Shown one piece after another: positions 12,128 to 62,797 of a stretch of DNA of 64,000 nt. A program made the translations under genes and the position numbers. The notes below the pieces were generated by a model. It ran no database searches and was not told where the DNA came from. It was given only the letters and a program-made list of their open reading frames with translations. Within the stretch, counting starts at the first letter, position 1, and the number at the start of each line of letters is the position of its first letter. Source of the DNA: Lachnospiraceae bacterium NK4A144 (GTDB lineage: Bacteria; Bacillota; Clostridia; Lachnospirales; Lachnospiraceae); the NCBI GenBank assembly GCA_000424365.1, contig AUJT01000002.1:186001-250000 (forward strand), written 5' to 3'.

Positions 12128-13435
12128 TTATAACCCCTTTAAGCGATCCATGTAAAAAGTCTGCAGATACTCATCATTAAAGTATTCCACACTTTCCGTA
12201 ATACCCATATCCCGCAGCTGCTTTTCGATTTCCCGGTAATAAACATTACAGATAAAAATACCTGTATTCTCCGGTAAACTCTTTAATTTCTCCGGTGACT
12301 CGATCGTCAGTCCGCAGAACTCCTCACCCCAGCGAGCAGAGTTATTATCACAGGTAAAAAGCGGCGGATACTGTTCACCATAGTTTTTCATATAATTCCG
12401 ACACATATTTCCTGCGCCGAAAAGAACCACATGATCATATTTTTTCATGGCGTCAGCCATACGGATTTGCCACTTAAAATACTCTGCCAGACGATAAACC
12501 AGACCCAAAAGCTCAGGCATAAGGATTATAGGAAAATTCGCAGCATTCGCTCCAATGTCCATTATGAGATATCCATCAAAGCTTATGGAGCGAAGTCCCT
12601 TTATGACTTCATGCCAGTTTGTGGCGGATCTGCCTCCGGAAATAGCTGTAAACGGGATCAACGTATCATCATTCTGGCCATCGTTATCATAAAGCATAAC
12701 CGCATCTATCCTGCCCTTAAGCGCATAGGCAAATTCGTATATATCCTGAGCACAGACATTACAATGACCTATATTCAGGCAAAAACCAAATGCATCCGCC
12801 CGATTTGCTTCACCATTAAGTCTGTCAAGCCACTCAATGATCTCTGCCGTATCAGATAGCATACCTCTGACTAAATGACCCTCAAAAGGCTTATACTGAT
12901 TCTCAATGAGTATTTTCATTGGATGGTCGCCGCGGTTTTCGGTATCCTTTTCAAATACCTCATTTGCAATCTCAGATAACCACAGATATTTCTGCCTGTT
13001 ATACTCAAATACTTCCTCATCTGTCCCCTGCAGATGAAAAGGACTCACAACTATAGCCCTGCATCCAAGCTTCGCCGCAAATCTGACCTCTTCCTCAAGT
13101 ACCCGAAAATATAAATCTCTGTCAGGTTCCCTTCCATCATTTGGAAAACAAAGAGGTGTTGCATGTGCAACAGGCAGATTTATCTCTTTTTTTCTAAAAG
13201 TATCCAGTAAAACATCAAGCTTCTCAGCAATACGACTCGGATCATCCGGAATAAATATAAACCCGTTCTCCAGAGTTTCCTTTCTCGCCTTATCAGTAAA
13301 TAAAAAATCTCCGGCTCCGCTGCAAATACCCAGTTCCAGCATCGCATTTCTAAAGCCGGCCTTCCTCATATCTCCAACAGCCTGCCCCGGCCTCCTCAGC
13401 TCAATGTAAGCTGTTGAATTTAACAGTATTTCCAT
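12128..13435 (-). CDS. Sugar isomerase-like TIM barrel fused to FGxG Rossmann-like module
   Basis: A 435-residue fusion. Residues about 1-330 form an isomerase-like TIM barrel with IENQYKPFEGH, the metal-binding AFGFCLNIGHCNV, VMLYDNDGQND, and YLIMDIGANA. Compared with its neighbour, the aspartate of DTGH is replaced (LNIGH) and the final glutamate by aspartate (MDIG), so activity is uncertain. Residues about 335-435 are the FGxG module: VVLFGAGNMCRNYMKNYG, then FTCDNNSARWGEEFCG, IESPEKLKSL, and IFICNVYYREIEKQLRDMG. This module recurs on many other proteins of the locus. It lies 18 bases upstream of the stand-alone isomerase gene and 80 bases after the GT2 gene start upstream. Substrate unknown. 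Confidence 0.75.
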   Translation of the reverse strand: MEILLNSTAYIELRRPGQAVGDMRKAGFRNAMLELGICSGAGDFLFTDKARKETLENGFIFIPDDPSRIAEKLDVLLDTFRKKEINLPVAHATPLCFPNDGREPDRDLYFRVLEEEVRFAAKLGCRAIVVSPFHLQGTDEEVFEYNRQKYLWLSEIANEVFEKDTENRGDHPMKILIENQYKPFEGHLVRGMLSDTAEIIEWLDRLNGEANRADAFGFCLNIGHCNVCAQDIYEFAYALKGRIDAVMLYDNDGQNDDTLIPFTAISGGRSATNWHEVIKGLRSISFDGYLIMDIGANAANFPIILMPELLGLVYRLAEYFKWQIRMADAMKKYDHVVLFGAGNMCRNYMKNYGEQYPPLFTCDNNSARWGEEFCGLTIESPEKLKSLPENTGIFICNVYYREIEKQLRDMGITESVEYFNDEYLQTFYMDRLKGL

Positions 13436-13515
13436 CTAATCCTCCAAACTATCGGAACCCTCACATAATAGTCTCATATACTACATGTACGTAAACTTTT
13501 TATCTTTTAATTGGC

Positions 13516-14529
13516 TCAGTGTGAAGTCTTCACTACCAGTTTTCTTAAACAGCAAAAACGAGTATATAAGACAAATAAGATCAACATCTTAACATGCTTT
13601 TTTAGCCAGTCTTTCTTTCCATTAGTTCTAACTCCACCCTGGAATAAATAATCTCTTCTGTATTTTTCCCAAATTCGAGAATCATTATATTTCCTTTTAT
13701 CCCACGCAAGGCCAAATACATACTCTGTAAGTATATAATTGACCTGCTTAAAATCCTCCCTCGGAATATCTTCTAGTAAAGATTTCATATACTCAAACGA
13801 ATATATAATATCCAGTTCTTTGGAAAGACTACTGTTTCCATGTGACGCACTATTGTTATAAATATAATAGTTATATCCAATATGGTCTAATATGGCTATC
13901 TTATCTCGAGGCGATACACTTCTAAAAACTGAAAGCTGATAGCAAACATCCTCATACCAATGACACTCTGGGTTAAATAACGGAATCGCCCCACATTCAT
14001 TGCATATTTTCTCTGCATTAAATACCATATTCCACAAGAAGCCCGCACCAACGCTTCTGGAGTTGACCGGAAGAATCCTACGAACATCCCCAACATCTAA
14101 ACTACCAAATGCCGTCAATTCACCTATTACAGCTTCTCCTGTTTCAGGTACTTCTCTCCATCTGCACTCAGCCGCAACGAGATCGTCCCGTTCGATTTCA
14201 TTAATAAGAACAGAAAACATATCCTTCTCAACCACATCATCTGCATCTATATAAGCGATATAATGTCCTCTAGATTTCTCTATTCCCATATTTCGCGCCG
14301 AACTCGGACCACCATTTTCTTTATGAAACACCCTTACACGCTGGTCTGATCTGGCAATATCCTCACAGATTTTTCCACTATTATCTTTAGAACCATCATC
14401 GACCAGTATAAGTTCCAAATTGTCATAATCAGATGACAATATTGACTCCAAGCATCGTTTCAGCGCTCTTTCTGCATTATATACGGGTACTATGACCGAC
14501 AATAGTCCCTCACTCCTGTCACTCATCAA
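13516..14529 (-). CDS. GT2 family glycosyltransferase
   Basis: A 337-residue family 2 transferase. It begins GLLSVIVPVYNAERALKRCL, followed by LILVDDGSKDNSGKI, FHKENGGPSSARNMGIEKS and the metal motif YIDADDVVEKDMF. The C-terminal half has the CHWYEDVCYQL block (ED acceptor-side motif) and a basic, hydrophobic tail (KKHVKMLILFVLYTRFCC), which suggests membrane association. There is no FGxG module. It lies 13 bases downstream of the acyltransferase gene. Donor and acceptor unknown. Confidence 0.88.
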   Translation of the reverse strand: MMSDRSEGLLSVIVPVYNAERALKRCLESILSSDYDNLELILVDDGSKDNSGKICEDIARSDQRVRVFHKENGGPSSARNMGIEKSRGHYIAYIDADDVVEKDMFSVLINEIERDDLVAAECRWREVPETGEAVIGELTAFGSLDVGDVRRILPVNSRSVGAGFLWNMVFNAEKICNECGAIPLFNPECHWYEDVCYQLSVFRSVSPRDKIAILDHIGYNYYIYNNSASHGNSSLSKELDIIYSFEYMKSLLEDIPREDFKQVNYILTEYVFGLAWDKRKYNDSRIWEKYRRDYLFQGGVRTNGKKDWLKKHVKMLILFVLYTRFCCLRKLVVKTSH

Positions 14530-29929: not shown

Positions 29930-32251
29930 TCACGACTCCAACTTCTTATTTATCAACGCCTTCAACTTTGTCGAGCTCGTTGATTCTGTATACGGGAAGA
30001 ATACTATATCTGCTCCTCGCTCTTCCAAAAACTGCTTATCTGCAATCCAGCTCGGACTATCATCATGATCATTTCCAGAAAACTGGACATCAAAATGATA
30101 CAATCTCCATGCTTCACGTATTCCACTATCATAAAGCGGTACCTCAACCGCTTTATCTACATACTTACAAGAATCAACGATTTCCAGACGTTCTTCAAAC
30201 GGTATAAACGTTCCGCTTTTTTTATTAGCACTTACCCACTCGTCTGTACAGACACCTGCAATCAAGTAATCACACTGCTCCTTTGCGCGTTTAAGTAAAT
30301 TCAGATGTCCCTTGTGAAAAAGGTCAAACACTCCTGCCACATATCCGATATGGTATTTTTTCTTTTCTGGCTGTGAACCATCTTCATTAGTCCGAACATT
30401 CATTTCGGGTTCCGGTTCAGACTGAAGATCTGAATCTGGATCAAAGACACTATAATTTGTAACACCAAGTTTCTTTATCTGGCGAAGAATATTCTCAAAC
30501 TGTTTAACGCAAATTATCAGTTTATAATCATTAGGTGACATATTCGTTAACTCATCTGCACTGGCGATCGGAATACCATCAAGATCCTTTCCCTGGCTTT
30601 TCGGATTATTATCAATGATCATGTCAACAGGATGCCTTCTTCCATAACGCTGCAAAAACTGCTTAGCATATAGTCCTGACCCAAACAGCACAAGCTTTCT
30701 ACTACCAATATTCTTAAAAAGATCTACAAAGATCCTAAGATATTCCTGAATCGGGAACGCCATAGTTTTCCTATTGGAATTGATCATTCCCTCTGATGCG
30801 ATAAGAGGTTCTCGCCAAAGATGAACCTCTGCATCATTTCTTAGCTGACTCATACGATTGCCATAGATTTCTCCCCATACATCAATATCATCCAACAGAT
30901 CATATCTACTGTATATATCTGCAATCTCTAGTGCATCAGAACGATTTTCTAAATTATTATAAATCACGTCAATCACTCTACGTATCAATACTTTCACAGG
31001 ACAATTATGAATCACATGTCTTTGTCCAAAGAAATAATACTCTCGATTTTTATAAATACACTTATCCGGAGTCAGATCAAGCACGACATCTTTCAATACC
31101 GCACCGATCCTATCCTCTGGAACATTGTGTCTCTTCAAGATTTTTGCCACATGTTCATCGAGCTTCTCATTTGTCGTATCTGATAAATGTGAAACTATAT
31201 CCATAAACCTATCAAGTTCTTTCAAAAACATTTCTTTATCCGTCTCAGCAAGACTTGAAAGGTAAACATATGCTAACTCTGACTCATTGATATTAACAGC
31301 AAATCCCTTATCTGTTACATCGCCATACAAAATACTTATCCCGCTCTTATCAAGTATCTCCTGAATGCGAGAAATACCAGGAGCGAACTCCCTTCCTTCT
31401 GAACTAGCTGCTTTCTCACAAACCTTGACCTCACCAGTTTGCTTATCAGAATATCCAAATATCCGAATCTCCTGCTGAGATTTGTCGCAATATGTGTCCA
31501 ATTCAATACGGCTAACATCAGCAAAGCCTCCATTTTTCGGGCATTCAATAAAATATGCATTAGCAAAGGCATGTATACTCCCCTCTTTCAAAAGGGTTTC
31601 CATCATTTGTCTTTCATATAAAAATACAGAACCACGATTCCTATATAAGGGCTCAAAACCCATTTTTCTCATATCTGTCGGTTCATAGTCCTCAGCCAAT
31701 ATGGTTGCCGGATAAATGATATTAGGAAACACAGAATAAAACTTCGAATAACGCACACCTGCTTTTTCAAGATAATTCTTAATTTCATACCGTGAATAAG
31801 CTCGCCCACTAACGAATTTCTTATCCATCTTTGAAATCTTTATATACCCATCAAGACCATCAAAGCATCGATCTGTATATGGATCATTGTCTCCACAGAA
31901 ATATCGAATTCCCAATCGATTATTCGCTGCTACGATAAGCTTACCTGATTCGGAAACAAGATTTATTGCCATTTTCAGAACATTTTCAGGTTCCGACGCA
32001 AGCTCAAAAATGCAAGGGACAAAAACCCTGTCATATCTCTCATCAATTCTTAAGCCATCATCCTCTATATAACCCTCTGTGACCTCAATTTCACGCTTTC
32101 TTAACTCCACAACAATCGAATCTATCCACTCTGTCATCCAATCATCTTCTCGCCTTGATCGTACACAAAAAATGTGAGAAACGGAGTCATCACAAAGACA
32201 ACCCACAATTCCCGCCATAATATTTTTTCTAATTGCAGTAATATCCATCAA
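29930..32251 (-). CDS. Multidomain protein: SAM-MTase-like, degenerate kinase-like, FGxG module, TagD-like cytidylyltransferase
   Basis: A 773-residue protein. Residues about 1-190 resemble a class I methyltransferase (ERYDRVFVPCIFELASEP, then SGKLIVAANNRLGIRYFCG) but lack a clear glycine-rich SAM loop. Residues about 210-480 align with its neighbour's kinase-like domain, but the key motifs are degraded: DLTPDK (about 392) for D-x-x-P-x-N and FFGQRH (about 407) for FDQE. An FGxG module follows (LVLFGSGLYAKQF at about 520; IIDNNPKSQGKDLDG). After an acidic linker comes a TagD-type domain (about 633-773) with GVFDLFHKGHLNLLKRA (HxGH) and ESTSSTKLKAL. It should make a CDP-polyol such as CDP-glycerol. 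It lies 63 bases from its paralogue. Confidence 0.72.
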   Translation of the reverse strand: MMDITAIRKNIMAGIVGCLCDDSVSHIFCVRSRREDDWMTEWIDSIVVELRKREIEVTEGYIEDDGLRIDERYDRVFVPCIFELASEPENVLKMAINLVSESGKLIVAANNRLGIRYFCGDNDPYTDRCFDGLDGYIKISKMDKKFVSGRAYSRYEIKNYLEKAGVRYSKFYSVFPNIIYPATILAEDYEPTDMRKMGFEPLYRNRGSVFLYERQMMETLLKEGSIHAFANAYFIECPKNGGFADVSRIELDTYCDKSQQEIRIFGYSDKQTGEVKVCEKAASSEGREFAPGISRIQEILDKSGISILYGDVTDKGFAVNINESELAYVYLSSLAETDKEMFLKELDRFMDIVSHLSDTTNEKLDEHVAKILKRHNVPEDRIGAVLKDVVLDLTPDKCIYKNREYYFFGQRHVIHNCPVKVLIRRVIDVIYNNLENRSDALEIADIYSRYDLLDDIDVWGEIYGNRMSQLRNDAEVHLWREPLIASEGMINSNRKTMAFPIQEYLRIFVDLFKNIGSRKLVLFGSGLYAKQFLQRYGRRHPVDMIIDNNPKSQGKDLDGIPIASADELTNMSPNDYKLIICVKQFENILRQIKKLGVTNYSVFDPDSDLQSEPEPEMNVRTNEDGSQPEKKKYHIGYVAGVFDLFHKGHLNLLKRAKEQCDYLIAGVCTDEWVSANKKSGTFIPFEERLEIVDSCKYVDKAVEVPLYDSGIREAWRLYHFDVQFSGNDHDDSPSWIADKQFLEERGADIVFFPYTESTSSTKLKALINKKLES

Positions 32252-32314: not shown

Positions 32315-34180
32315 TTACCCCTCATATTTTCTATTAGGGTCAAATACGGATATATCCTTTATTCCCAATTTATCAAGTTGTTCTAAAATCGTCTGATAAT
32401 CACGTATGCAAATCATCACCTTGCAATCCTTAGCCATTTCAATCGAAGGTTCTGATATCTTAACATTCTCAAATACCTCTCCCCACTTTGTAGGATTGTT
32501 GTCAAATATTCCTTTTATCTCATAGACACTTCGATATTTTTGCATAAATCTCTCTGCATATCTGCCTGAGCCGAATAAAATCATCGGTTTATCGCTACAA
32601 CCATCAAAAATATGATCAAAGACTCTATCATAATCATTTACACCGAAATCAATTTTCAATCTGGTCTTCTCTGTTTTATCAAAATCTCTCCTATGAAGTT
32701 TATGATATTCCTTCAATTCATCTTCACTTCGAAGTGATTTTAAATAATCCAATTCAATAACTTCCCACCACTTCTTATTATCAAGAAGTCCATATCTTTC
32801 TAACGCCTTATCTCTAGGAAGAATCTTTTCAAAATGAGGATTACCAGAATAAAATGTCGCTATCATCCTCCAAAGTAACTCCTTAACCGGCAAATATGGA
32901 ACAATGAACTCTTGATCAAAAAAAATAAATTGATCATCATAAAACGAATTCAGCGGTGCCATATCAAAAAAACCTGTTCTTAAAATCTTTCCGTCATAAA
33001 AACACTGCTTAAATTCTGGCCATTCCGCTTCTTTATGACCATTGGAAATAAACCAAGTTTTCCACTGTGAAAGAACTATATCTGTATAAGAACTATCCAA
33101 ATCAACTAGTTGTGATGATATCATCACCTCATCCCTAAATTTATCCATCACCTTGAATAATCCGTCAACATTTCCGTTTTCCAACAGATCTTTCATATAC
33201 TGCTGCCCAACAGGAAAATGTTCAAAAGGCATTAGATAACATCCATCCGTAATTCTTCCGTCAACTACCGGGACACCTGTCTCTCTAAGATGTTCCATAT
33301 TATCAAACAGTGACCGTAAGCGTTTCTTTCCTTCCGGATAAACTGCGCATTTTTCCACCGTTTCTGCTCTACCACCTATACCACGATGAACTATAGTATA
33401 AAGGGCATTCTCTCCCCCTCTTTCAACCGAAGAGGTCACATTCATCAAATCAGAAAGAGCTGTCTTAGGTGCACACTCTATAAGATATGCATTTGCCATC
33501 TTATGAAACAAACCATTATGAATAAGACTGCTATATAAATACTCTTCCTCTAAAAAGATACTCTTAGAACAAAAGTATTCTGGAAAAAGACGGTTTGCCA
33601 GGTCCTCGTTCGGAGAATAATCCTCAGAAAAAAGCATTGTTGGATACTCTAAACCTGGAAAAACTCCCCATATCTGTATCTCATCTTTGCTCCATCCTGC
33701 CTCAATTAAAAAATCGTAAATCTCCGCTTCATCATAACAACGTCCGGAAAAGCCTTTTTTATCACAGCCCTCTCTCTTACTGTAATTATCAATCCCATCA
33801 AAGACATGTCCTGTATATGGATCATGATCACCACAAAAGTATCGGATTCCCATCCTATTATTCATGCCTAGGATAAGATGTCCATCTGCTTTCAATGCCT
33901 TTTTTATACAGCTAAAAAGGCATTCCGGTTGCAGCACCCTTTCAGGTGCCGCAACCGAAATAATATAATCATATATACTTTTCTCTTTTTCATTTTTTAA
34001 AAGGTCTATAAATTCGTAAACATCGATAACAAAAATCTTTTTGATCCGTTCATTTAACAGTTCAGCTATCGGTTCATCTGCTCCACCAATATATAAAACC
34101 GACGCATCCTCAGGGATGTTGTACCACCCCAAAAGTCCCTTGCGGATTTCTCCTATCAGATTTCTATTATCAGTCATCAT
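32315..34180 (-). CDS. Multidomain protein: SAM-MTase-like, kinase-like, FGxG module
   Basis: A 621-residue paralogue of the next gene downstream, without the cytidylyltransferase end. The first part is methyltransferase-like (DASVLYIGGADEPIAELL near 25; GHLILGMNNRMGIRYFCG near 100). The middle looks like a kinase fold of the aminoglycoside-phosphotransferase/choline-kinase kind: VEKCAVYPEGKKRL (candidate lysine, about 275), a hinge LMPFEHFPVGQQYM (about 316), catalytic-loop DMAPLNS (about 406-412) and metal motif FFDQEF (about 420-425). The end (about 531-621) is the FGxG module: MILFGSGRYAERFMQKY, IFDNNPTKWG, MICIRDYQTILEQL. It lies 31 bases after the GT2 gene start. Whether it phosphorylates or methylates a glycan or polyol is unknown. 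Confidence 0.68.
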   Translation of the reverse strand: MMTDNRNLIGEIRKGLLGWYNIPEDASVLYIGGADEPIAELLNERIKKIFVIDVYEFIDLLKNEKEKSIYDYIISVAAPERVLQPECLFSCIKKALKADGHLILGMNNRMGIRYFCGDHDPYTGHVFDGIDNYSKREGCDKKGFSGRCYDEAEIYDFLIEAGWSKDEIQIWGVFPGLEYPTMLFSEDYSPNEDLANRLFPEYFCSKSIFLEEEYLYSSLIHNGLFHKMANAYLIECAPKTALSDLMNVTSSVERGGENALYTIVHRGIGGRAETVEKCAVYPEGKKRLRSLFDNMEHLRETGVPVVDGRITDGCYLMPFEHFPVGQQYMKDLLENGNVDGLFKVMDKFRDEVMISSQLVDLDSSYTDIVLSQWKTWFISNGHKEAEWPEFKQCFYDGKILRTGFFDMAPLNSFYDDQFIFFDQEFIVPYLPVKELLWRMIATFYSGNPHFEKILPRDKALERYGLLDNKKWWEVIELDYLKSLRSEDELKEYHKLHRRDFDKTEKTRLKIDFGVNDYDRVFDHIFDGCSDKPMILFGSGRYAERFMQKYRSVYEIKGIFDNNPTKWGEVFENVKISEPSIEMAKDCKVMICIRDYQTILEQLDKLGIKDISVFDPNRKYEG

Positions 34181-41642: not shown

Positions 41643-42923
41643 TCATATTCTTTGATAAATGTTTCTCATGTCAAATTCAATAATATTTTCAAAACCTTGA
41701 TTCTTTAGATTCTCAACGATTTCTGCTCGTATCTTATTTCGAATTGACATTATAATAACAGTATCGTCTGAAGCCTCAATGTCTGTTATTCTATTCACTG
41801 GTCTGTTGAAAAAATGGCCCATATCAAATAAAGCATTAGATACAACAAAACTCACTCTTCCTTTTTCTTCCACAGAGTACATCCTATAAATATATTCTGC
41901 TACAGTCCCTGTTCCGTATATCAGAATTTGATCATATTTCTTCGAACGTTCTACCGCACTACAAATTTTTCCGTATTCATCTAAAAAAACTTTATTTCTT
42001 TCTTCTTCATCAAGACAAATTAATTTTACAAGTTCAGAATTTATAATAGGTACATCCGGAAACTTCACAATTAATTCTTTCAACCGAACAACAAATTTAT
42101 TAATTTCTTTTTCATATTCATCTGGAGCCTGGAAATACATTTCCCGAATCTTTTTTACAATAATCGTAATACTCTCTCGCATCAAACGCATTTTTACGTA
42201 ATATGGAACATCACAGCCAGAGTTTAGAATCTTATCATATACCTTTAATGTAGTATCATATAAATAATTACCTGTATGCGTAGCACTCAATGAGTTTTCA
42301 AAATAATGGTACGCACTCTTTCCCGTATAGAATACATACGATGCCTTATGAAAAAGCATCCAATTACAATCCAAATCTTCACATATAGGTATACTTTCAT
42401 CCGATTGAACGTTGTCAAATAATCGTGCTCTGTACACCTTTCCACATAGTTCCCATCTAAAAAAAGTCCACCGAAACATTTCCTCAACAGCTGCTTCTCT
42501 TGCAAAAAGATGGTCTTCCCCGATAATTCCTACTGGCTTCACTGTTCCATCAGAAAGCTCAAGTACCATTCTTTCAACACAAATATCTGCTGTAGAATTA
42601 TTATTAAACGAATTGACTGCAACTTCGATAAAATCTTCATCAATCCAATCATCACTATCTACAAATGCAATAAAATCTCCACTGCATTCTCTAATACCAT
42701 GATTTCTTGCCGATGTTACACCCTTATTTTCCTGATGTATAACATGAACATTTTCATTTTTCTCAGCATAAAGATTACATATCTTTCCTGAATCATCTGT
42801 AGAACCGTCATCTACCAGTACAATTTCCACATTCCCATATGACTGATTAAGTAACGAGTCTACGCATCTTTTCAAAAATTGCTCCGCATTATACACCGGA
42901 ACGATCACACTTACTAATTCCAT
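41643..42923 (-). CDS. GT2 glycosyltransferase with C-terminal YGxG module
   Basis: A 426-residue GT2 fusion. The start is the ATG at 42923 (MELVSVIVPVYNAEQFLKRC), which has an AGGGAGA site about eight bases before it; the open frame is longer but lacks such a site. Transferase motifs are EIVLVDDGSTDDSGKI, NHGIRECSGDFIAFVDSDDW and PICEDLDCNW. Residues about 332-426 are the module: ILIYGTGTVAEYIYRMY, FVVSNALFDMGHFFN, VIIMSIRNKIRAEIVENL. It is the most upstream gene of the second glycan block. Immediately before it (from 42950) lies a solo IS66 end, so its transcription start may be in mobile-element sequence. Confidence 0.86.
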   Translation of the reverse strand: MELVSVIVPVYNAEQFLKRCVDSLLNQSYGNVEIVLVDDGSTDDSGKICNLYAEKNENVHVIHQENKGVTSARNHGIRECSGDFIAFVDSDDWIDEDFIEVAVNSFNNNSTADICVERMVLELSDGTVKPVGIIGEDHLFAREAAVEEMFRWTFFRWELCGKVYRARLFDNVQSDESIPICEDLDCNWMLFHKASYVFYTGKSAYHYFENSLSATHTGNYLYDTTLKVYDKILNSGCDVPYYVKMRLMRESITIIVKKIREMYFQAPDEYEKEINKFVVRLKELIVKFPDVPIINSELVKLICLDEEERNKVFLDEYGKICSAVERSKKYDQILIYGTGTVAEYIYRMYSVEEKGRVSFVVSNALFDMGHFFNRPVNRITDIEASDDTVIIMSIRNKIRAEIVENLKNQGFENIIEFDMRNIYQRI

Positions 42924-50393: not shown

Positions 50394-52337
50394 TCATTTT
50401 TTTACACAAATATAACTACTAATTCCTCTCTCTTTTAGCATCCTGCATATCTCTTTACGCATTTTTATTCCAGTACATACAACTATACCCGTGTTTTCAT
50501 CAACTTGAAGTTCTGATAATTCATATACTTTTTTTCCGTTAAATTCAGCAACTTCTCTATGTCCATCAGAAACAATATATGCTTCCACATCCTTAAACAA
50601 ATCAGCATATCGAATTGCAAACAACCCCGTACCATAAACGTATATTCGGGTGAATTTCTTCCTAAAATCAATATAATTACTCTTAAACAATTCTATTTCC
50701 AAATCATCAAAAGAACCGTTTCCAAAATATGTATTCTCCATATAATCAGCAGTCATAGATAAAAAACGCATCATATAATTCCCATACATTTCCGCATAAC
50801 GTCTACTTTGTATCTGTCCAACACAAAATCCAGCATCTTGCACGATATACTGCCATAACCTGTCAATTTGAATTTTCTCTACGCTTCCATTCCACTTTGA
50901 AAGTAAGTGTTTCAATACTTCGCCCCTTATCCATAAACAATTTTGAGACGTCATTGGCTGTACTTCATCATCAATCACACATTTTAAGTGCAATTTTTCG
51001 ATATCTCTCTTCACCTTTTCAATATCATCGAACTGATTCCATCCTATATTTCTATAATTCGATGCGTGAAGTACTGCTGGTGGAATCAGAGCCCCCAAAA
51101 ACTTCTTTTCCTCAAACAGTCTTATCACAGCTTTGCAGTACTCTGGACTCTTTATTAGATTTTCCGTATAGTTATACAACGTGGATTTACTAGATGATAT
51201 AAATTCACTTTTTCCTGACAAATCAACATCTGATATAAGGCATACATACCTTTTATCAGCATATTTCTTTAACACGTCAAGCTTATTATTTGTATTAAGA
51301 CAGTCATACGCCTTTTCTCTGTATAGCTTTATGACTGTCAAATCATTAGAACATATTAATACATCAAACTGTTTTCTTAGATCATTTAATATCTCTGCAA
51401 CATCATTCACGGCGCTGACATATTGTGCAAATACAATAATTGTCGTTTTATCCGTATGTATGATATCATCCGGTTCTTCATCCAAAATATAATTTAGACA
51501 GAGAGTTCTCTGCAACATCCTTAAATCCATTGCACCGGATAGACTCTTATAAATAAGGCCAACATCATATTTTGTATTTTTATCTATATAATCCAACGCA
51601 AGTTGAATGTTTTCTGACGTTTGCCAAGAAGATATGTCCTTTCCCAATTCCTGTCGTTTCAAAAAAGGAAAATTACGTTTTTTTATCAACTCATATTGAA
51701 ATGCACCGTACTGATTTTGATTAAACTCAGGATTTTCTGAATCATTTATCTCCGTATTTGCCAATGTAAAATAACTATAACCCAAATCATGGAACTTTTT
51801 TGTGAAACACTTCTCATGATTATCAACAACTCCATTATAATCTCTGTAATATGGCATTTCATTCCAATACTTTTGAAACTCTTCAGTCGTAAACAAAGAA
51901 GAACGAATCGCAATAAAAAACGACTGTATATGCTCAGTAATACTTTCTTTTACATTCTTTGCATTGCCATGCTTAATTAACCCCCAAAAATCACCTTCTC
52001 TAGACTCGGCATCAGCAAAGAATTCTTCAATATCCGAAAATGGTCCAAAAAAGGAATCATTAACCATTACTAATTCTTCATATTTTTCAACCTCACCCCA
52101 ACCAATAAACTTAGTCAGTGCGTCCTTGAAACCGCCTGCATCCAACCCAATATTTTTCCGAAAATAATACTTGTCAGCATATTTTCGTAAATACTCTTCT
52201 CCACTTACAACACTTTCTTCATTACATACAACGATCAACGTTGTAGAAATTTTTTTAAGCTCTTTCAACATATATCCAACATATTCTTCAACAACATTTT
52301 GTGAACTATATGTCAAATAAATAACCAACCTTTTCAT
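50394..52337 (-). CDS. RgpF-like (rhamnan synthesis F) protein with C-terminal YGxG module
   Basis: A 647-residue protein. MKRLVIYLTYSSQNVVEEYV, RKNIGLDAGGFKDALTKF, LVMVNDSFFGPFSDIEEFF and SSLFTTEEFQKYW are the RgpF/rhamnan-synthesis family (a GT-A-like transferase). The middle (about 290-550) repeats similar short motifs (RNIGWNQFDDIEK), as in two-part RgpF proteins. Residues about 564-647 are the module: IYVYGTGLFAIRYADLF, IVSDGHREVAEFNG, VVCTGIKMRKEICRML. I prefer the ATG at 52337 because it gives the family N-terminus, although ATGs at 52367 and 52382 are open and no start has a strong ribosome site. Confidence 0.82.
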   Translation of the reverse strand: MKRLVIYLTYSSQNVVEEYVGYMLKELKKISTTLIVVCNEESVVSGEEYLRKYADKYYFRKNIGLDAGGFKDALTKFIGWGEVEKYEELVMVNDSFFGPFSDIEEFFADAESREGDFWGLIKHGNAKNVKESITEHIQSFFIAIRSSLFTTEEFQKYWNEMPYYRDYNGVVDNHEKCFTKKFHDLGYSYFTLANTEINDSENPEFNQNQYGAFQYELIKKRNFPFLKRQELGKDISSWQTSENIQLALDYIDKNTKYDVGLIYKSLSGAMDLRMLQRTLCLNYILDEEPDDIIHTDKTTIIVFAQYVSAVNDVAEILNDLRKQFDVLICSNDLTVIKLYREKAYDCLNTNNKLDVLKKYADKRYVCLISDVDLSGKSEFISSSKSTLYNYTENLIKSPEYCKAVIRLFEEKKFLGALIPPAVLHASNYRNIGWNQFDDIEKVKRDIEKLHLKCVIDDEVQPMTSQNCLWIRGEVLKHLLSKWNGSVEKIQIDRLWQYIVQDAGFCVGQIQSRRYAEMYGNYMMRFLSMTADYMENTYFGNGSFDDLEIELFKSNYIDFRKKFTRIYVYGTGLFAIRYADLFKDVEAYIVSDGHREVAEFNGKKVYELSELQVDENTGIVVCTGIKMRKEICRMLKERGISSYICVKK

Positions 52338-52363: not shown

Positions 52364-53515
52364 TCATGAGTTCAACAGACATTCATTTAAAAAATCATCT
52401 ATATATGCTACTGCCTTTTTCCTCCCTACCTGTATCTTCTTTAGCAGCTCCTCTTTCCCATTAAGAACACACAAAATCATCAGATCATCGTTATCATCTA
52501 TCTCATCCATCCGTTTAACTTTCATCTCATCCATATTTGCGGATTGGTCGTAAACATTTACAATATCTAGCCCTATAGACTTCAACGTATCGAAAACCCT
52601 CTTGCCGACTGCCCCCAATCCATAAAGTGAAATTCGTTTTATATTTTTTTCATAAAGAAATGCAAGAACACGTTCTTTCTGTTCTTGCACCTTTTCTAGG
52701 CGAAGGTCTATCGAATAATTTAGACTCTGAATATAAATTCTATCTGAAATAGTCTTTACAACAATTTCTCTATTTGTCTCACTTAGAAGATTATTATCTA
52801 CAATCAACCTTCTCATCTCTTCAAGTGCTTCAACATTCCTCATCCTATTTAATGAAGTATTGGAATCTGACTCTCGATGAGTATACAAAACCTTATCACA
52901 TAAATTAAACTTTTTGCCGGCATCTTTCATCAAAACCCACAAAAAGGCATCATCGCAGTAACTTGTTTTTAAAATATACTTTTTCCACTCATCAGGAACA
53001 CTTGATTTACGAAGCATAACCTGTCCAGGTGACATAATTCCCCTTAACTTACACAAATAAGAAACATTGTCAAGAACAATATTAAAGTCTTCTGTGTCAT
53101 TCATTATTGCTGCACCTTGACCATAAATCCCATTACAAACTACCCCGTCAACACTTTGTATATTTGCTAACTGCTCGGCAAGATAATCATCAGACCAATC
53201 ATCATCTTGATCCCAAAAACAAATAAACTCCCCCTTCGCTAAGTTTAATCCCTCTACTCTACTTCCATGTATTCCAATATTTTCTTTATGATTTATCACA
53301 GAAACTTGTATATTATCATCTATGATATCATCTATTTCTATTTTTTCTTCCGGACAATCATTTATAAATATCACTTCATATGCTGAATCATTCCTAAGCA
53401 TACGAATATTTTTTATTAACATTTCTTCCAAATGTCGTACGAACTTTTTACCATAAAATAATGGGATTATTATCGTAATCAATATATTCAATTTGCCAAA
53501 CTCCACATTAAACAA
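52364..53515 (-). CDS. GT2 glycosyltransferase with C-terminal YGxG module
   Basis: A 383-residue fusion. The GT2 domain is less typical: ITIIIPLFYGKKFVRHLEEM, VIFINDCPEEKIEI (in place of VDDGS), NHKENIGIHGSRVEGLNLA and the metal motif CFWDQDDDWSDDYL. Residues about 294-383 form the module: ISLYGLGAVGKRVFDTL, NVYDQSANMDEMKV, MILCVLNGKEELLKKI. It lies 26 bases upstream of the RgpF-like gene and 109 bases downstream of the TylF-like gene start. Substrate unknown. Confidence 0.83.
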   Translation of the reverse strand: MFNVEFGKLNILITIIIPLFYGKKFVRHLEEMLIKNIRMLRNDSAYEVIFINDCPEEKIEIDDIIDDNIQVSVINHKENIGIHGSRVEGLNLAKGEFICFWDQDDDWSDDYLAEQLANIQSVDGVVCNGIYGQGAAIMNDTEDFNIVLDNVSYLCKLRGIMSPGQVMLRKSSVPDEWKKYILKTSYCDDAFLWVLMKDAGKKFNLCDKVLYTHRESDSNTSLNRMRNVEALEEMRRLIVDNNLLSETNREIVVKTISDRIYIQSLNYSIDLRLEKVQEQKERVLAFLYEKNIKRISLYGLGAVGKRVFDTLKSIGLDIVNVYDQSANMDEMKVKRMDEIDDNDDLMILCVLNGKEELLKKIQVGRKKAVAYIDDFLNECLLNS

Positions 53516-53624: not shown

Positions 53625-54527
53625 TTACTTCACGATTGCAATACTACATCCATCTGCTATAGGCATCTTCTTAAGTCTTATATTATGCACATTTTCATAA
53701 TCACAAACTGCTTTTTTTACGCCTGGTAATTCAGGATGAAAATAATCATGCATTAGAATAACTCCACCCTTGACCATTCTTGGAACAAAAAATTCTAACC
53801 CATCAAGCATTGGTTTATACAAATCCATATCCAAATTCACAAAGCAAAAAACATCATTAACTTCTTTTGCTGATTCCGGAAAATATCCTTTATGTATCTC
53901 ACATTTTTCTAAATGAGGCATTCTCGACCTTACAATTTCTTCATTGGTACATTCAAACCTACTTACATCATTAAAACCTCCTTTCATGAAATTGCCATCA
54001 TTTATATCTCTTTCTATCTGCAGGTCTTGTTCTGAAAAGCCCTCAAAAGTATCAAATAAGTACAATTTTCTGTTAGAAAAATACTTGTTTAAATATTCCG
54101 CGAACTCTCCCCTATTTACGCCACACTCTGCAACACTTCCTTCTTTTATTTCTTCACTTGCATACTCTGAAAAATATCTAACCCATGACACTCTTGGATC
54201 AATTTTTTCATCATATCTATTTATACTTGAAAAACATGCCGTCATTAACTCTCTATCCAATACCAAACAACTGATTTTATCTTCTTCTACTCCCTCATTC
54301 TTCAATTGATCATAAATCTCATTTATAAATTTTCTTTTACCAACAGAAATAATAATCTTATCATAATTGAGATTTCCAATCTCATTTATTTTATACACTC
54401 TATACTTGCAATACTCACCAACAACATTATTATCAACAAAGCCTATGATTGATGATTGATTAGATTTCTCTATATAGCTTGCTAGTACTGCTCCATTGTT
54501 TCCTGCACCAAAAATCAAAATTTTCAT
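53625..54527 (-). CDS. TylF-like O-methyltransferase with N-terminal FGxG module
   Basis: A 300-residue fusion. Residues 1 to about 95 are the module: MKILIFGAGNNGAVLASYI, GFVDNNVVGEYCKYRVY, KIIISVGKRKFINEIYDQL. A macrocin-O-methyltransferase (TylF) domain follows: WVRYFSEYASEEIKEGSVAE, CGVNRGEFAEYLNKYF (SAM loop), YLFDTFEGFSEQDL, CFVNLDMDLYKPMLDGLEFF and GGVILMHDYFHPELPGVKKAV, with the metal-binding aspartates of the family. TylF-type enzymes methylate sugar hydroxyls. It lies 40 bases after the GT32 gene start. Confidence 0.86.
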   Translation of the reverse strand: MKILIFGAGNNGAVLASYIEKSNQSSIIGFVDNNVVGEYCKYRVYKINEIGNLNYDKIIISVGKRKFINEIYDQLKNEGVEEDKISCLVLDRELMTACFSSINRYDEKIDPRVSWVRYFSEYASEEIKEGSVAECGVNRGEFAEYLNKYFSNRKLYLFDTFEGFSEQDLQIERDINDGNFMKGGFNDVSRFECTNEEIVRSRMPHLEKCEIHKGYFPESAKEVNDVFCFVNLDMDLYKPMLDGLEFFVPRMVKGGVILMHDYFHPELPGVKKAVCDYENVHNIRLKKMPIADGCSIAIVK

Positions 54528-54567: not shown

Positions 54568-55671
54568 TCACAAATAATTCTCTATCATTCCCCACATTTT
54601 CCTATTGTCTCTTAATTTCTTATCTCTTTTATTTTCCCCACCTGTTGACCAACCGAAATTATCATGATGAATTCCTATTGTATACTCAGTTTTACCCGTG
54701 AGTTCATATGTAAGATAATTCATCGGAAAAAAGAATGTGCTTGAAAGTATTAACATATCAGAATTTAACTGAAACTCCCCGTTTAATTCTATTCCATATT
54801 TTTCAAATGTTGAACTAACTAATCCCGGTTGCCAATATTTCTTAAATTCATCTTTATTTTGGGGTAACTCAAGGTCGTCATATAAATGAATAAGATTGTT
54901 TACCATATGATGATTTTTTTCTGCGCCAAATACCGCAAGATCAATGATGACGCTATTTGCAAACTCAAATACAGCCTTATTCCCTCGTAATTCATCTAAG
55001 GATTTAATCAACTCAACATCCATATCCAAGTAGAATCCACCATATTTTGAAATAACGTCTAAACGTGCATAGTCCGTTGCAAATGCCCATGCCTTACATT
55101 CAATCGCACGCTTAAAATAAGGATGATCCGAATGATAATTGTCTAGATTCCACTCTTTAATTTCGTAATCCGGACATACTTTCTTCCAAGTATCAAAGCA
55201 TTTCTGATATTCTTCCGGTTTCTCTTCTCCGCTAAACCAAAATCCGTGTATAACTTTAGGAATACATGCCTTTCTATCAACGTCCAGTCCCTGTTTTAAC
55301 AATTCTGTATCAATTATTGTTTCAGACGCTTGCTGCATAAAAGGAAACGAAAAACAACTCAAACTTTCATCCAAGCCAAGTCCCTCGAGTTGGATGTACA
55401 TATCATACATATATACAGGACTTGTTAATATGATAACCGCATTTTTCTCTTTTCTTAAAAATTCAGGTGTGTGAACATCGTACTGCTTTCCTGCAAAGAT
55501 GACCGTATTCTTTGTTTTATCGTTATCAATAAAATATAATATCTGATCAGAAAGTGATGATATAATACTTGTTTCTACCGACTTAAGCCATGCTCCTGTT
55601 CCAAAAAGGATTAATTTCTCCTGCGCAAATCGCCTGGGAGCTTCACTTAGTGTACAATTGTATAATTTCAT
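54568..55671 (-). CDS. GT32-like glycosyltransferase with N-terminal FGxG module
   Basis: A 367-residue fusion. The module (about 20-115) is LILFGTGAWLKSVETSII, FIDNDKTKNTVIFAGK, VIILTSPVYMYDMYIQL. The GT32 domain starts IPKVIHGFWFSGEEKPEEYQ, has EWNLDNYHSDHPYFKRAIE and the DXD region FATDYARLDVISKYGGFYLD, with MDVE completing LDMDVE. The end shows GIHHDNFGWSTG, a typical late block (H and W). It is a paralogue of 60882-61973 with the same order. Donor unknown. An untranslated 148-base gap separates it from the DUF3990 cassette. Confidence 0.86.
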   Translation of the reverse strand: MKLYNCTLSEAPRRFAQEKLILFGTGAWLKSVETSIISSLSDQILYFIDNDKTKNTVIFAGKQYDVHTPEFLRKEKNAVIILTSPVYMYDMYIQLEGLGLDESLSCFSFPFMQQASETIIDTELLKQGLDVDRKACIPKVIHGFWFSGEEKPEEYQKCFDTWKKVCPDYEIKEWNLDNYHSDHPYFKRAIECKAWAFATDYARLDVISKYGGFYLDMDVELIKSLDELRGNKAVFEFANSVIIDLAVFGAEKNHHMVNNLIHLYDDLELPQNKDEFKKYWQPGLVSSTFEKYGIELNGEFQLNSDMLILSSTFFFPMNYLTYELTGKTEYTIGIHHDNFGWSTGGENKRDKKLRDNRKMWGMIENYL

Positions 55672-59671: not shown

Positions 59672-60889
59672 TTATCCTCTTTCGTGAACACCAATATAGA
59701 CATTCCCGAAACCTTGCTCCACAAGCAGTTCTTTAATTTCCCTTCTCTCATCCGATACTATTGCTATTATGACTAATGCTGTCTCTTTATAATCCGCATA
59801 TTCATCTATTGTTTTTACCGGAATGTTCTCTATGATGCTCGTATTCCCATTCATCGCAGAGACTGCAAATCCTACTACATTTAGTTCTCTGAGTTCTCTG
59901 AGCACACGTTTTCCGAGTTTTCCTGCTCCATAGATTATTATCTGCTCAAATTTCTTAAAATATTCAATTTCATCTTTTGAAAAGAGCCCTTGCGACTGTT
60001 TTAAGCAATGATAAATATGCTGATAGTACGGATTATCAAACTCTACTTCACCATACGATTTAATATCCGGATAATCCGAAATGATGAAATTGTACTTTCT
60101 GTCTAGGATCTGCGCCAAAATACGAGCTGCGTCCTGATCATCATGATATTTCCCTAATAATAGCCTCATCATATCCGCATAGGCCACAATATTTCCTTTT
60201 AATCTCTGTACCTCATTTGTAACTGTGGTTATAGAGTTGTTACGCCGCAGGTATACATACAGTGCATCATCTATTACTTTTATACGCTTTGCAGCCAACA
60301 TTAGTTTTAATGAATATGCATTGTCTTCATGCACATATCCCTCTGTAAAGTATATACCATTGTCTCTGAGCATCTTTAATGATATAAGTTTTGATGTGCA
60401 ACGCATATCGAGCCAGCCATTGCTGTCCCTTAACATATCTATACCATTGCTTATAGAACCTGTCGGATATTTTGACTTCTTTGTATAAGTCTCAAAATTT
60501 TTTTCGAGATTTGAATTTTCATACAGCAATTTCATCTGAAATATGACCATATCCAACTGATCTTTTACAGCCTGTTCATATGTGATTTTCAATGTATCTC
60601 TTTCAAACCAGTCATCCGAGTCTAGGAACAAGACATATTCACTCTTTGCTCGTTCTATAGCTCTATTACGGCAATAAGCGACTCCTCTGTTAGAATCATT
60701 CTTAATGACAGTTATATTTCCGTACTGCTTTTCATATTCTGATAAGATTTCTAATGATCCGTCAATGGAATGGTCGTCGACACATATTATATCAAAATCC
60801 TCAAACTCTTGTTGAACAGCACTGTCCAGACACTTTTTCAGATATTTTTCCGAATTGTATACAGAAATAATTATGCTGACTTTACTCAT
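59672..60889 (-). CDS. GT2 glycosyltransferase with C-terminal YGxG module
   Basis: A 405-residue fusion. The GT2 domain has VSIIISVYNSEKYLKKCLDS, IICVDDHSIDGSLEIL, RNRAIERAKSEYVLFLDSDD and the acceptor block YVHEDNAYSLKLM. The module (about 317-405) is IIIYGAGKLGKRVLREL, GFAVSAMNGNTSIIEN, LVIIAIVSDERREIKELL. It overlaps the preceding GT32 gene by eight bases and lies 37 bases upstream of LicD. Sugar unknown. Confidence 0.87.
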   Translation of the reverse strand: MSKVSIIISVYNSEKYLKKCLDSAVQQEFEDFDIICVDDHSIDGSLEILSEYEKQYGNITVIKNDSNRGVAYCRNRAIERAKSEYVLFLDSDDWFERDTLKITYEQAVKDQLDMVIFQMKLLYENSNLEKNFETYTKKSKYPTGSISNGIDMLRDSNGWLDMRCTSKLISLKMLRDNGIYFTEGYVHEDNAYSLKLMLAAKRIKVIDDALYVYLRRNNSITTVTNEVQRLKGNIVAYADMMRLLLGKYHDDQDAARILAQILDRKYNFIISDYPDIKSYGEVEFDNPYYQHIYHCLKQSQGLFSKDEIEYFKKFEQIIIYGAGKLGKRVLRELRELNVVGFAVSAMNGNTSIIENIPVKTIDEYADYKETALVIIAIVSDERREIKELLVEQGFGNVYIGVHERG

Positions 60890-61973
60890 CTATCCTTCCA
60901 ATTTGAATTAGTTTTTCTAATTTTAACATTCCGTTCTTTTCTTTTTCACTTTTCCACGATCCTGCTTCTTCATGAATGGAAACCGTCTTATCAGAGCAAT
61001 AGTCTTCCATTCCATCGAGTGTTTTTGGAGACATCACTTCGCATGGATAGAGGACGATATCATCTATCTTTTGATAAAGATTTCTTATCTGAAAACCATG
61101 TTTTTTAAGTGTAGGATGCAGAAAAGTATGCCCTTGAGCTTTTCCTGGTTTACCATTAGACAGCAGAAAATGACGATTCTCATACACTTCCATCAATTCC
61201 CTGACGATACCACTCTTAGGCACTGCACCAAATCCGCAGCCGTTATTAACTCTGTCTGCGCATCCCATATTAAAGAATGCACCGTCTTTTAATAGACAGT
61301 CAAAACTTTTTACTGCTCTTACATCTGTATCGAGATATATGCCACCCTCGTTGTATATGATATCCAGCCGGGCATAGTTGGACGCAAAGCCATAGGCATG
61401 TGCTTCATATGCTTCTCTTAGATACTGTTTTTTGCCAAAATCATAGTTATCTTCGTTCCACTCTATGATCTCGTAGTCAGGATTCCACTTTTTCCAGCTT
61501 TCTATATTTGCCTGAAACTCCTGTGGTTTTTCATTTCTACCAAGCCATATATAGTGTATTTTCTTTGGGATACGATTTTCACCTTCCGTGAATTGATAGT
61601 TCGGTATTTCTTCTTTTGCATATCGCATGAGTACCTGTAGAAAGCACTCCATTCCATCGATTTCGCTGATTCTATCCAACTGTTCTACGATATCCACAGC
61701 ATAAAATGGTGATGATATAAATATCAAATACTCCTGTATATTTTTTATCTGCTTCAGCACTTCGCTGCTTACAATTTCTACACTTTCTCCCAAATGTTCT
61801 ATCTTACTTCCCCATTTGTCAGAACTATTATCTATGATCATTTCCGGTATTTTTTCAGAAAAGTATATGTCTAGGGAGCTTTCCATAGCTCTTCCTGCTC
61901 CAAATATGATCACCTTTTTATTTGTGATGTACTTTCTGAAAGAGCTTGGGGACATGTTTCTAATTTTAACCAT
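60882..61973 (-). CDS. GT32-like glycosyltransferase with N-terminal FGxG module
   Basis: A 363-residue fusion. The module (about 15-115) is VIIFGAGRAMESSLDIYF, MIIDNSSDKWGSKIEH, LIFISSPFYAVDIVEQL. The GT32 part starts IPKKIHYIWLGRNEKPQEFQ, has EWNEDNYDFGKKQYLREAYE and FASNYARLDIIYNEGGIYLD with TDV completing the DXD. The late CSDKTVSIHEEAGSWKS is the usual H/W block. It is a paralogue of 54568-55671. Its start codon overlaps the stop of the ParB-like gene by one base (TAATG). Confidence 0.86.
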   Translation of the reverse strand: MVKIRNMSPSSFRKYITNKKVIIFGAGRAMESSLDIYFSEKIPEMIIDNSSDKWGSKIEHLGESVEIVSSEVLKQIKNIQEYLIFISSPFYAVDIVEQLDRISEIDGMECFLQVLMRYAKEEIPNYQFTEGENRIPKKIHYIWLGRNEKPQEFQANIESWKKWNPDYEIIEWNEDNYDFGKKQYLREAYEAHAYGFASNYARLDIIYNEGGIYLDTDVRAVKSFDCLLKDGAFFNMGCADRVNNGCGFGAVPKSGIVRELMEVYENRHFLLSNGKPGKAQGHTFLHPTLKKHGFQIRNLYQKIDDIVLYPCEVMSPKTLDGMEDYCSDKTVSIHEEAGSWKSEKEKNGMLKLEKLIQIGRIDE

Positions 61974-62797
61974 TATTTTTGACCGTACTGTTCCTCTATT
62001 TTTCTATTTGTTTCTTCCAAAATTCGGATAGTATTTTTATCAAATCCGAGTTCTTCTGCTCTCTCTTTTGAAAACGAAGCATCTCCATGAATTTCTGATA
62101 ATGACTTTGTCGACGGATATACATCACAAATGATGTGGTCCATTTTTTTGAACATTGCTATTGCCAGTCTATGGTTCCCGTCTATTGGATAATAGTCCTC
62201 CATCAGCGACACCGTACAGTTTTTATCATATCCGTTTTTGTCCCAATTTTTCAGGAGTTCGATGTATTTCTTCAATCTCTTTTGAGATGTTTCCACACTA
62301 TTGAATATGGATAGTCCTCTTACATATATGTCATATCCATCATCTCTTAATCCATAGTACTGCTCCGCAGCCAGATAACGAAATGCCATTGCATATGTCT
62401 TACTGGTTGCTTTCCATATGTCACGAAGTGATATTTCTGCGTTCTTCTCTATAGGCTCCCCCAGCATCAGCTCATACAAAAAAGGGGATACCCATACGTA
62501 CTTTGTAAATCCCCTTTCTTTCAATGTATTAATTATCTCATTCTTTATTGACTCATGTACAGCAATACATACTAGCAATCCGTCGTTATCTTTGACCTGA
62601 TGCAGTGGCATAACGGGTAATCCATCCACCGTTTTCTTTTCCGGTTCTCCGGATGTTATGAAAAACTCTATGTTGTTTTCTATACCCTTCTCACATACTG
62701 CCTTATAGAAACGTTTACCAATAAAGCCCGCTCCATAGATGCCGGCTTTATTTTCGGAGATGAGCTTTATTAACTCTGTAGCATTTTTTATATTCAT
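61973..62797 (-). CDS. FGxG-type module fused to ParB/sulfiredoxin-like domain
   Basis: A 274-residue protein. Residues 1 to about 105 are the module: AGIYGAGFIGKRFYKAVCE, FFITSGEPEKKTVDG, LLVCIAVHESIKNEIINTL. The rest has a helical part (ATSKTYAMAFRYLAAEQYYG) and MEDYYPIDGNHRLAIAMFKK, a DGNHR pattern typical of ParB/Srx-like catalytic sites, some of which are known as nucleotide-using kinases or CTPases. It lies upstream of a GT32 gene with one-base overlap. Its role in glycan synthesis is unknown; this domain combination is new to me. Confidence 0.6.
   Translation of the reverse strand: MNIKNATELIKLISENKAGIYGAGFIGKRFYKAVCEKGIENNIEFFITSGEPEKKTVDGLPVMPLHQVKDNDGLLVCIAVHESIKNEIINTLKERGFTKYVWVSPFLYELMLGEPIEKNAEISLRDIWKATSKTYAMAFRYLAAEQYYGLRDDGYDIYVRGLSIFNSVETSQKRLKKYIELLKNWDKNGYDKNCTVSLMEDYYPIDGNHRLAIAMFKKMDHIICDVYPSTKSLSEIHGDASFSKERAEELGFDKNTIRILEETNRKIEEQYGQK

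Follow-up and report, generated by a model that had tools for sequence, protein, structure and literature searches.

The window analysed here comprises 64,000 nucleotides of Lachnospiraceae bacterium NK4A144 (assembly GCA_000424365.1, contig AUJT01000002.1, positions 186,001 to 250,000 of the forward strand), and fifteen genes of its sugar-coat cluster were confirmed to encode, beside their host parts, a common module of about 90 residues. The module is a single homologous family with two residue subtypes, and it is a property of whole operons, being present on most of the assembly and decoration enzymes of one kind of glycan operon. It is clear that the module is real and widespread; its function is unproven, as are its ligand, its partner and its acceptor.

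The first-pass annotation of this DNA had claimed that fifteen proteins share the module, and all fifteen were recovered at the genes it named. A profile hidden Markov model of the fifteen segments describes one family. For the leave-one-out searches, rows were removed one at a time from a joint alignment of all fifteen segments, and the profile of the other fourteen was run against the full-length fifteenth protein (Z=300). Every protein was recovered, with E-values from 2.3e-18 to 4e-6 and scores from 21.5 to 60.7 bits, and in all fifteen the top-scoring stretch was the segment itself; in the shuffled-protein control, the best of 1600 reached 11.7 bits. When the profile of all fifteen segments was searched against the 256 six-frame reading frames of the window with at least 60 amino acids, the same fifteen were returned with E 3.2e-21 or better, and the next-ranked frame was a GT4 at 46665, with E 0.0056. 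The true Rossmann enzymes of the window, at 45601 and 57043, gave E-values of only 0.78 and 3.5, which means that the module is more than a generic Rossmann likeness.

All fifteen modules lie on the reverse strand, and their placement varies as the first-pass annotation described, being C-terminal in nine hosts, N-terminal in five and internal in one. C-terminal modules are found in a TIM-barrel protein of the AP_endonuc_2 family (PF01261; gene 12128-13435, module 12164..12445, leave-one-out E 4.7e-17, signature F-D-N-Q), in the protein 32315-34180, which is 30% identical to 29930 (module 32333..32596, E 1.3e-17), in a WbsX-family protein (PF14307; gene 39980-41524, module 39992..40258, E 9.1e-10), in an RgpF-family protein (PF05045; gene 50394-52382, V-type module 50397..50657, E 2.1e-9) and in the GT2 hosts. 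Among the latter, four belong to PF00535: 34212-35528 (module 34215..34499, E 5.2e-14), 37193-38566 (37202..37486, E 1.6e-11), 41643-42965 (V-type, 41655..41939, E 1.1e-13) and 52364-53515 (52382..52645, E 4e-6, the weakest of the fifteen); the remaining GT2 is 59672-60889 (V-type, 59684..59953, E 5e-15). The N-terminal modules belong to a GT4 (PF00534; gene 38576-39940, module 39674..39940, E 4.1e-15), a TylF-type methyltransferase (gene 53625-54527, module 54258..54527, E 3e-9), two GT32-type proteins of PF04488 (gene 54568-55671, module 55336..55626, E 5.8e-11; gene 60882-61973, module 61644..61925, E 6.1e-10) and the protein 61973-62797, whose host domain has no family over cut-off (module 62477..62758, V-type-like with T at the strand-2 position, E 3e-9). 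The internal module (30428..30706, E 2.3e-18) is in 29930-32251, between an N-terminal part with no Pfam family over cut-off and a cytidylyltransferase domain (PF01467). The Pfam host domains adjoin the segments and do not overlap them, and the module itself is covered over a cut-off only in 53625, by PglD_N.

Some of the host labels given earlier have to be revised. The proteins 29930 and 32315 had been read as methyltransferase/kinase-like; the module is indeed present in 29930, internally, but its C-terminal cytidylyltransferase domain had been overlooked. The methyltransferase family PF13489 stays below threshold in 32315 (21.1 versus 27 bits) and gives no match in 29930, and no kinase family was found. 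The ParB-like label of 61973 is likewise supported by no family. The protein 29930-32251 thus consists of a part like that of 32315, the module and the cytidylyltransferase, for which the closest solved match is the ethanolamine-phosphate cytidylyltransferase 3ELB (E 6.8e-18); its chemistry could resemble the phospho-amino-acid decoration of flagellin. WbdD, considered as a solved relative of the 29930/32315 hosts, is absent from the structure matches listed.

The genome of the window holds 31 module matches at E <=0.001, 15 of them in the window and the rest on contig C2 just beyond it and on contigs C30, C16 and C7. In a set of 61 related genomes, this one included, 33 have a module match, with up to 38 matches in one genome. 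Through the 29930/32315 family, 75 named loci were collected, with a query that included the module, but with both scanned patterns lying in the host part; most are titled Lachnospiraceae, and the others Selenomonas, Anaerovibrio and Clostridia. These loci contain 489 module-bearing frames (477 without overlaps), distributed over 74 of the 75, the remaining locus having none. Together with the fifteen of the window this gives 504 frames, with the module C-terminal in 273, N-terminal in 123, internal in 87 and alone in 8, and with more than one module in 13. A module-bearing gene of the 29930/32315 family is found in 71 of the 75 loci. In 51 of the 71 it is accompanied by a TIM-barrel gene with module, directly next to it in 31 and no more than three genes away in 47.

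The host segments fall into 85 clusters, 34 of them with at least two members, and the hosts belong to about 20 Pfam families. The occurrence in glycan operons claimed by the first-pass annotation was borne out. The host families are GT2, GT4, GT8, Gly_transf_sug and Caps_synth, GT-D, RgpF, WbsX, DUF4422, TOD1/MUCI70, TagF-type glycerophosphotransferase, LicD, FkbM, TylF, Methyltransf_24, Methyltransf_11, radical SAM, FrhB_FdhB_C, DUF1796, cytidylyltransferase and the TIM barrel. GDSL stays below its cut-off on module hosts. A cross-phylum profile search gave many single matches in frames of about 205-251 amino acids, which were taken as Rex repressors from their length and profile likeness.

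The operon-level nature of the module is seen best within one enzyme family. In the genome of the window and two relatives picked for having modules, 13 of the 25 GT2 matches lying within 12 kb of at least three other modules carry a module in their own frame, versus none of the 140 GT2 matches elsewhere. One region of the genome (C2:30-80k), whose cluster includes a WbaP-type initiator, has 15 GT2 matches and no module on any of them. The six WbaP-type genes of the genome are all more than 100 kb from modules, the nearest at 121 kb and the other five on module-free contigs; initiators of the WecA/TagO type were not searched. Across the 63 loci with at least four module genes, 449 genes bear the module and 106 intervening genes (at least 120 amino acids) do not, so that 81% are bearing. 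A simple hydrophobicity scan found at least three hydrophobic stretches in 1 of these 106 genes and in none of the 489 module hosts. The Epimerase family accounts for 7 of the 106 versus none of 108 module hosts sampled from the 468 complete ones, and NTP_transf_3 for 3 of the 106, no NTP_transf family being found in the same 108 hosts; four more of the intervening genes are cytidylyltransferases. The cluster of the window is less clean, and a GT4 (46665), a GT2 (48169) and a LicD (58798) are without module.

Over 514 modules, the G8-x-G10 turn is nearly invariant (G8 in 96%, G10 in 97%), and D32, at the end of strand two, is conserved in 83%. Two main classes are distinguished, the D-type with 426 members and the V-type with 77, the latter having Y7, V32 and [ST]33 and lacking the typical Q76. 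TIM (53/53), WbsX (9/9) and GT-D (5/5) hosts are mostly D-type and RgpF (9/10), GT2b (9/9) and Caps_synth (5/5) hosts mostly V-type, while GT2 hosts are mixed, with 108 D, 31 V and 2 other. The first-pass annotation had placed a D-N or equivalent after strand two of all fifteen segments of the window; this pair is present in nine, whereas 39980 and 52364 have D without N and 41643, 50394, 59672 and 61973 have V or T. The strongest couplings among 399 D-type modules, uncontrolled for relatedness, are N33-Q76, F7-N33, F7-Q76, V5-A29, F7-I73, G8-D32 and G10-D32. With the same limit on relatedness, the full set F7-D32-N33-Q76 occurs in 245 of the 426 D-type modules versus 122 expected from independence, and its hosts include the 29930/32315 family, TIM, GT2, GT4, FkbM, TagF, GT32, LicD and others. 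In nucleotide-binding relatives, the phosphates, ribose and base sit at these crest positions, and the F/D/N/Q crest is read here as a putative ligand site common to unrelated hosts.

AlphaFold2 models were obtained for the D-type module of 29930 (mean predicted local distance difference test score, pLDDT, 93.6, from 15 sequences) and for the V-type module of 59672 (pLDDT 94.0, from 52 sequences). Both show alternating strands and helices with a short strand at the end, and a small Rossmann-like fold is predicted with high confidence for both subtypes. Both models were compared with the PDB by Foldseek, and the best 50 matches were considered for each. Rex repressors, VioB, PglB, perosamine N-acetyltransferase, 3NKL, biliverdin reductase and 2PY6 are among the best 50 of both, 2G6T among those of the D-type model and WbaP (8T53) among those of the V-type model. 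Within these matches, the query TM-scores (TMq) are 0.76 for 3NKL and 0.73 for 8T53 with the V-type model, and 0.72 for 2PY6, 0.68 for 2G6T and 0.68 for 3NKL with the D-type model. The sequence profile of the module, searched against solved structures, also finds 3NKL (E 3.3e-8) and Rex (E 1.4e-6), and one module-profile match in another genome (G118) falls in a 507-residue frame homologous to a WbaP-type transferase of the window's genome. The likeness to the N-terminal domain of PglD and to a CapD-type domain, suggested earlier from family knowledge, is therefore upheld by both sequence and fold matches.

As for its history, the module became fused to many host families in the distant past and has largely remained with them, with few later exchanges. 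Three findings lead to this view. In 381 of 505 cases the most similar module sits on a host of the same family. The tree requires 73 host changes over 28 states, where 27 would suffice if each host formed a single clade and shuffles need no fewer than 230. Mixed-host clades (2 to 40 tips) with support of at least 95 number only three. The tree holds 317 of the 514 modules, with at most about 40 per host and rare hosts dropped; only two changes between D-type and V-type are found on it, its columns including those that define the subtypes. Recent rampant shuffling was not supported, given that modules are mostly inherited with the host family, and the earlier statement that the module moves as a unit holds for deep time but goes too far for more recent history. 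For 8 of 505 modules, the closest counterpart is in their own locus (1.6%, versus 1.3% by shuffling). A code specific to each operon, with modules matched to one another within it, was considered and rejected, since only a tiny within-locus excess is seen; this near-absence of within-locus likeness agrees with a ligand or partner shared by all the operons.

Two observations concern individual proteins. A 29930-type protein of locus L097 (9977-13453) has a second module, which shares 68% identity with that of a Caps_synth protein from another genome (L102), likely a recent exchange between hosts. One host cluster (c20; three proteins, six modules) consists of very large proteins of about 1280-1410 amino acids, L089 4721-8713, L091 4302-8519 and L116 5356-9195.

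The closest relative whose role has been measured is the cytosolic domain of WbaP. As reported (PMC10942596), this domain is stabilised by the uridine nucleotides UMP, UDP and UTP and destabilised by UDP-Gal, and the full enzyme is inhibited by UMP with a half-maximal inhibitory concentration (IC50) of 4.1 uM. In the same source, the domain makes most of the dimer contact, and the authors assign to it dimerisation and a nucleotide sensing that is independent of the sugar. In a related initiator that lacks the hairpin, activation is reported to depend on a partner protein (PMC12802240).

The reading favoured here, which we hold tentatively and at rather less than even chances, is by analogy with these relatives that the module binds a common nucleotide-type ligand that switches or pairs the host enzymes of one glycan line. 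The module would be a soluble relative of the WbaP/CapD accessory domain, of the PglD-type N-terminal domain and of the NAD(H) domain of Rex, fused to most of the assembly and decoration enzymes of one kind of glycan operon. It would bind a small ligand of the nucleotide type, the same across all these operons, and binding would switch the host enzymes or pair them, such that the assembly line answers to one signal. Homology, predicted fold, breadth of hosts, presence or absence at the level of operons, and conserved and coupled crest residues are the observations at hand, and it is from analogy that we infer a bound nucleotide and a regulation or pairing of enzymes. The shared tether or common sensor proposed by the first-pass annotation may also be right. 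A more specific version, which we consider unlikely, is that most soluble transferases and decorators of such an operon (in certain lineages an island for flagellin glycosylation) carry copies of one sensor domain of the WbaP nucleotide-sensor superfamily, through which a single small ligand would turn the entire line on or off, with the F-D-N-Q, Y-D-[KR] and Y-V-[ST] classes as readers of different nucleotides or states.

Several points weigh against the nucleotide reading. Radical SAM, methyltransferase and TIM-barrel hosts gain no obvious use from sensing a released sugar nucleotide. The conservation of the crest could reflect a structural network, and the V-type modules (77 of 514) are without the strand-2 aspartate that would hold the ribose. 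Eight GT2 and nine GT4 enzymes are among the 106 intervening genes without module, and, with the host allowed for, modules are scarcely more alike within loci than between them, the excess being 0.26 percentage points, reached in 7 of 300 permutations. The cluster of the window itself contains the multi-pass proteins GtrII (35611-37167) and DUF2142 (48907), the small membrane proteins EamA-like 45246 (sub-threshold) and DUF2304 (47801), and an ABC exporter (1524) lies at the cluster's edge. These are as in lipid-linked export and speak against a cytosolic line, the search having left aside WecA/TagO-type initiators.

That the lines work in the cytosol, and in some families on flagellin, is a lead only. 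In several other families of the phylum, module operons stand beside fliW-csrA-hag. Searches by tblastn used queries that we take to be FliW, CsrA, FlgL and FliC. Outside the family of the window, eleven genomes have at least three module matches (G157, G191, G261, G149, G236, G037, G089, G245, G117, G266 and G053), and in six of them flagellar genes lie about 10-16 kb from modules, with all four queries matched in G157, G261, G149, G191 and G236 and FliC only in G037; in G117, G266 and G053 the modules are on short contigs. G157, G191 and G245 belong to one family, so that linked and unlinked cases are not all independent. In G041, a genome of the same order as the window's, a stand-alone module of 85 amino acids (L034 1495-1752) is encoded between flgL and fliW-csrA, and flagellin follows on the contig.

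On the other side, the modules of G089 and G245 are unlinked to flagellar genes, and linkage is seen in just one, G071, of the twelve fetched genomes that have one or two matches. At least 12 of the 48 core loci assessed (out of 75, with 60 candidate contigs tested, the observed number being a lower bound) are within 60 kb of a flagellin-domain gene versus 6.6 expected (P 0.024), and no flagellar family is among the 25 most frequent in 130 flank genes drawn from 311. Co-occurrence with flagellin was set aside as uninformative: flagellin genes are present in each of the 47 core-locus genomes searched, yet 58 of the 61 genomes of the relatives set have them too. In the genome of the window, 15 kb separate the last module from a flagellin gene. 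Flagellin glycosylation is treated here only as a lead, for certain lineages, and the case is weakest for the window itself, given that its cluster has membrane proteins of lipid-linked pathways.

Other readings of the module were weighed against the same data. It may be that the modules pair homotypically or heterotypically and so hold soluble enzymes as one complex, the nucleotide site being vestigial or structural. We regard such a docking role as somewhat unlikely: the spread, within a single kind of operon, over hosts from about 20 Pfam families, with no multi-pass host in the hydrophobicity scan of 489, the adaptor-like occurrence of the module alone (8 of 504 frames) and the dimerisation of the related WbaP domain (PMC10942596) all agree with it, but the strongest conservation and coupling are at the nucleotide crest, and there is little of the within-operon matching described above. 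Each enzyme could alternatively hold a common acceptor through its module, perhaps flagellin or its glycan stem. The presence of the module on transferases and decorators, its absence from the epimerases found, the flagellar genes near modules in six of eleven genomes and the stand-alone module beside flgL in G041 are in line with this. Nonetheless, hosts expected to act on small molecules (the TIM barrel, the cytidylyltransferase fusion) carry it as well, the linkage to flagellin is weak in the family of the window, whose cluster has membrane proteins of lipid-linked pathways, and flagellin, present in all core-locus genomes searched, is almost as common in the relatives set; we regard acceptor binding as distinctly improbable.

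Coupling of glycan assembly to the NADH/NAD+ ratio, with the module binding NAD(H) as in Rex, draws on Rex being among the best sequence and structure matches. This seems highly improbable, because the DNA-binding part of Rex is in none of the fifteen hosts, acetyltransferase domains that bind TDP- and GDP-sugars reach similar Foldseek scores, and the module is presumably shorter than a full dinucleotide-binding domain. Least of all can one credit that there is no separate module, and that unrelated Rossmann-like ends of catalytic domains are alike by chance or convergence. Rossmann turns are common and 10 of the 14 other segments are less than 23% identical to the first, but leave-one-out profiles find all fifteen with a gap to everything else, Pfam host domains stand beside the module, GT2 enzymes have it or lack it according to the operon, and it occurs at N-terminal, C-terminal and internal positions. 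The leave-one-out and GT2 tests refute chance or generic Rossmann likeness for practical purposes, and binding of a common nucleotide-type ligand is retained, with the caution expressed above, as the working proposal.

Some neighbouring genes of the window deserve mention. A second TIM-barrel protein without module (11174..12109, reverse strand; PF01261, 88.9 bits) adjoins 12128, the TIM gene with module is likewise followed by a module-less frame of about 310-330 amino acids in many of the related loci, and PF01261 accounts for 13 of the 130 sampled flank genes of core loci. Two IspD-family cytidylyltransferases without module adjoin a TIM-barrel gene (10417-11169) and the LicD gene at 58798 (58091-58906). 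Between the TIM gene 12128 and 29930/32315 there are about 16 kb (13436-29929) with GT2, acyltransferase, YfhO, AAA-ATPase/PDDEXK_9, AAA_21, DDE transposase and Shedu SduA_C; this is probably an insertion or rearrangement, given that the corresponding genes lie no more than three genes apart in 47 of the 71 related loci. The Shedu SduA C-terminal family protein (28959-29849; PF14082, 92.7 bits), of what we take to be a defence family, is directly beside the module operon. A DUF3990 protein (56462-57016; PF13151, 116.5 bits) with a weak ADP-ribosyltransferase-like match lies among the glycan genes. The GtrII-type membrane glucosyltransferase, DUF2304, GT2 and DUF2142 proteins (35611-37167, 47801-50409) stand among the module genes and would fit lipid-linked sugar transfer.

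An unnamed domain carried by some four fifths of the genes within a single kind of bacterial glycan operon would make these operons recognisable in genomes. One domain with one candidate ligand site is also a handle on the coordination of many unrelated enzymes in one pathway, and, if the link to flagellin is true, the module would also mark some flagellin glycosylation islands by sequence alone.

The module has no family of its own in the copies of Pfam and NCBIfam searched, and is related to known sensor-type domains. The first-pass annotation spoke of an undescribed system; no description of the module was found in open-licence PMC papers, but its relatives are described, the WbaP domain with measured nucleotide binding. 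Among known systems, the type A flagellin glycosylation locus of Clostridioides difficile 630 includes kinase, phosphothreonine transfer and methyltransferase steps on flagellin, and the available part of its description does not mention the module (PMC4441256). Some module operons are near fliW-csrA-hag, and a likeness to the methyltransferase and kinase steps of that locus may be supposed from the chemistry.

Two solved proteins have a similar domain, the FkbM methyltransferase 2PY6 of Methylobacillus flagellatus and the uncharacterised 2G6T of Clostridium acetobutylicum. The methyltransferase part of 2PY6 is matched by an FkbM-type module host (E 3e-26), but neither protein is matched by the module sequence profile at E up to 1. 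The C-methyltransferase C-terminal domain (PF08484, Methyltransf_14) reaches 20.4 bits with the 29930 module, against a cut-off of 23.5, and matches this one segment of the fifteen. Rex shares with the module its NAD(H) Rossmann fold and is among its nearest relatives in sequence and structure; in Rex an N-terminal winged helix precedes the NAD(H) domain, whereas none of the fifteen hosts has one and the module is instead fused to enzymes.

PglD_N (PF17836), the N-terminal domain of PglD, VioB, PerB and NeuD, has the fold of the module, but its curated cut-off is passed by one of the fifteen window proteins, and it has three matches in the genome, two over cut-off. The NCBIfam model for NeuD/PglB/VioB (TIGR03570) matches 11 of the 15 segments at E up to 10, with 6e-8 as the best; its cut-off is 160.8 bits, and the first segment scores 21.2. 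PglD_N is followed by a left-handed beta-helix acetyltransferase, whereas no hexapeptide acetyltransferase family is found in the fifteen module hosts. The large phosphoglycosyl transferases of the WbaP type have a cytosolic domain, called a DUF, that shares with the module a predicted fold and an accessory role in glycan assembly. Its Pfam family and that of 3NKL we take to be CoA_binding_3 (PF13727), which has five matches in the genome at E <=0.01, none of them at a module. WbaP combines this domain with a membrane bundle and a catalytic domain in the same protein, whereas the fifteen module hosts have no membrane bundle and none has the catalytic family. The WbaP domain sits on one initiator, and the module is spread over many enzymes.

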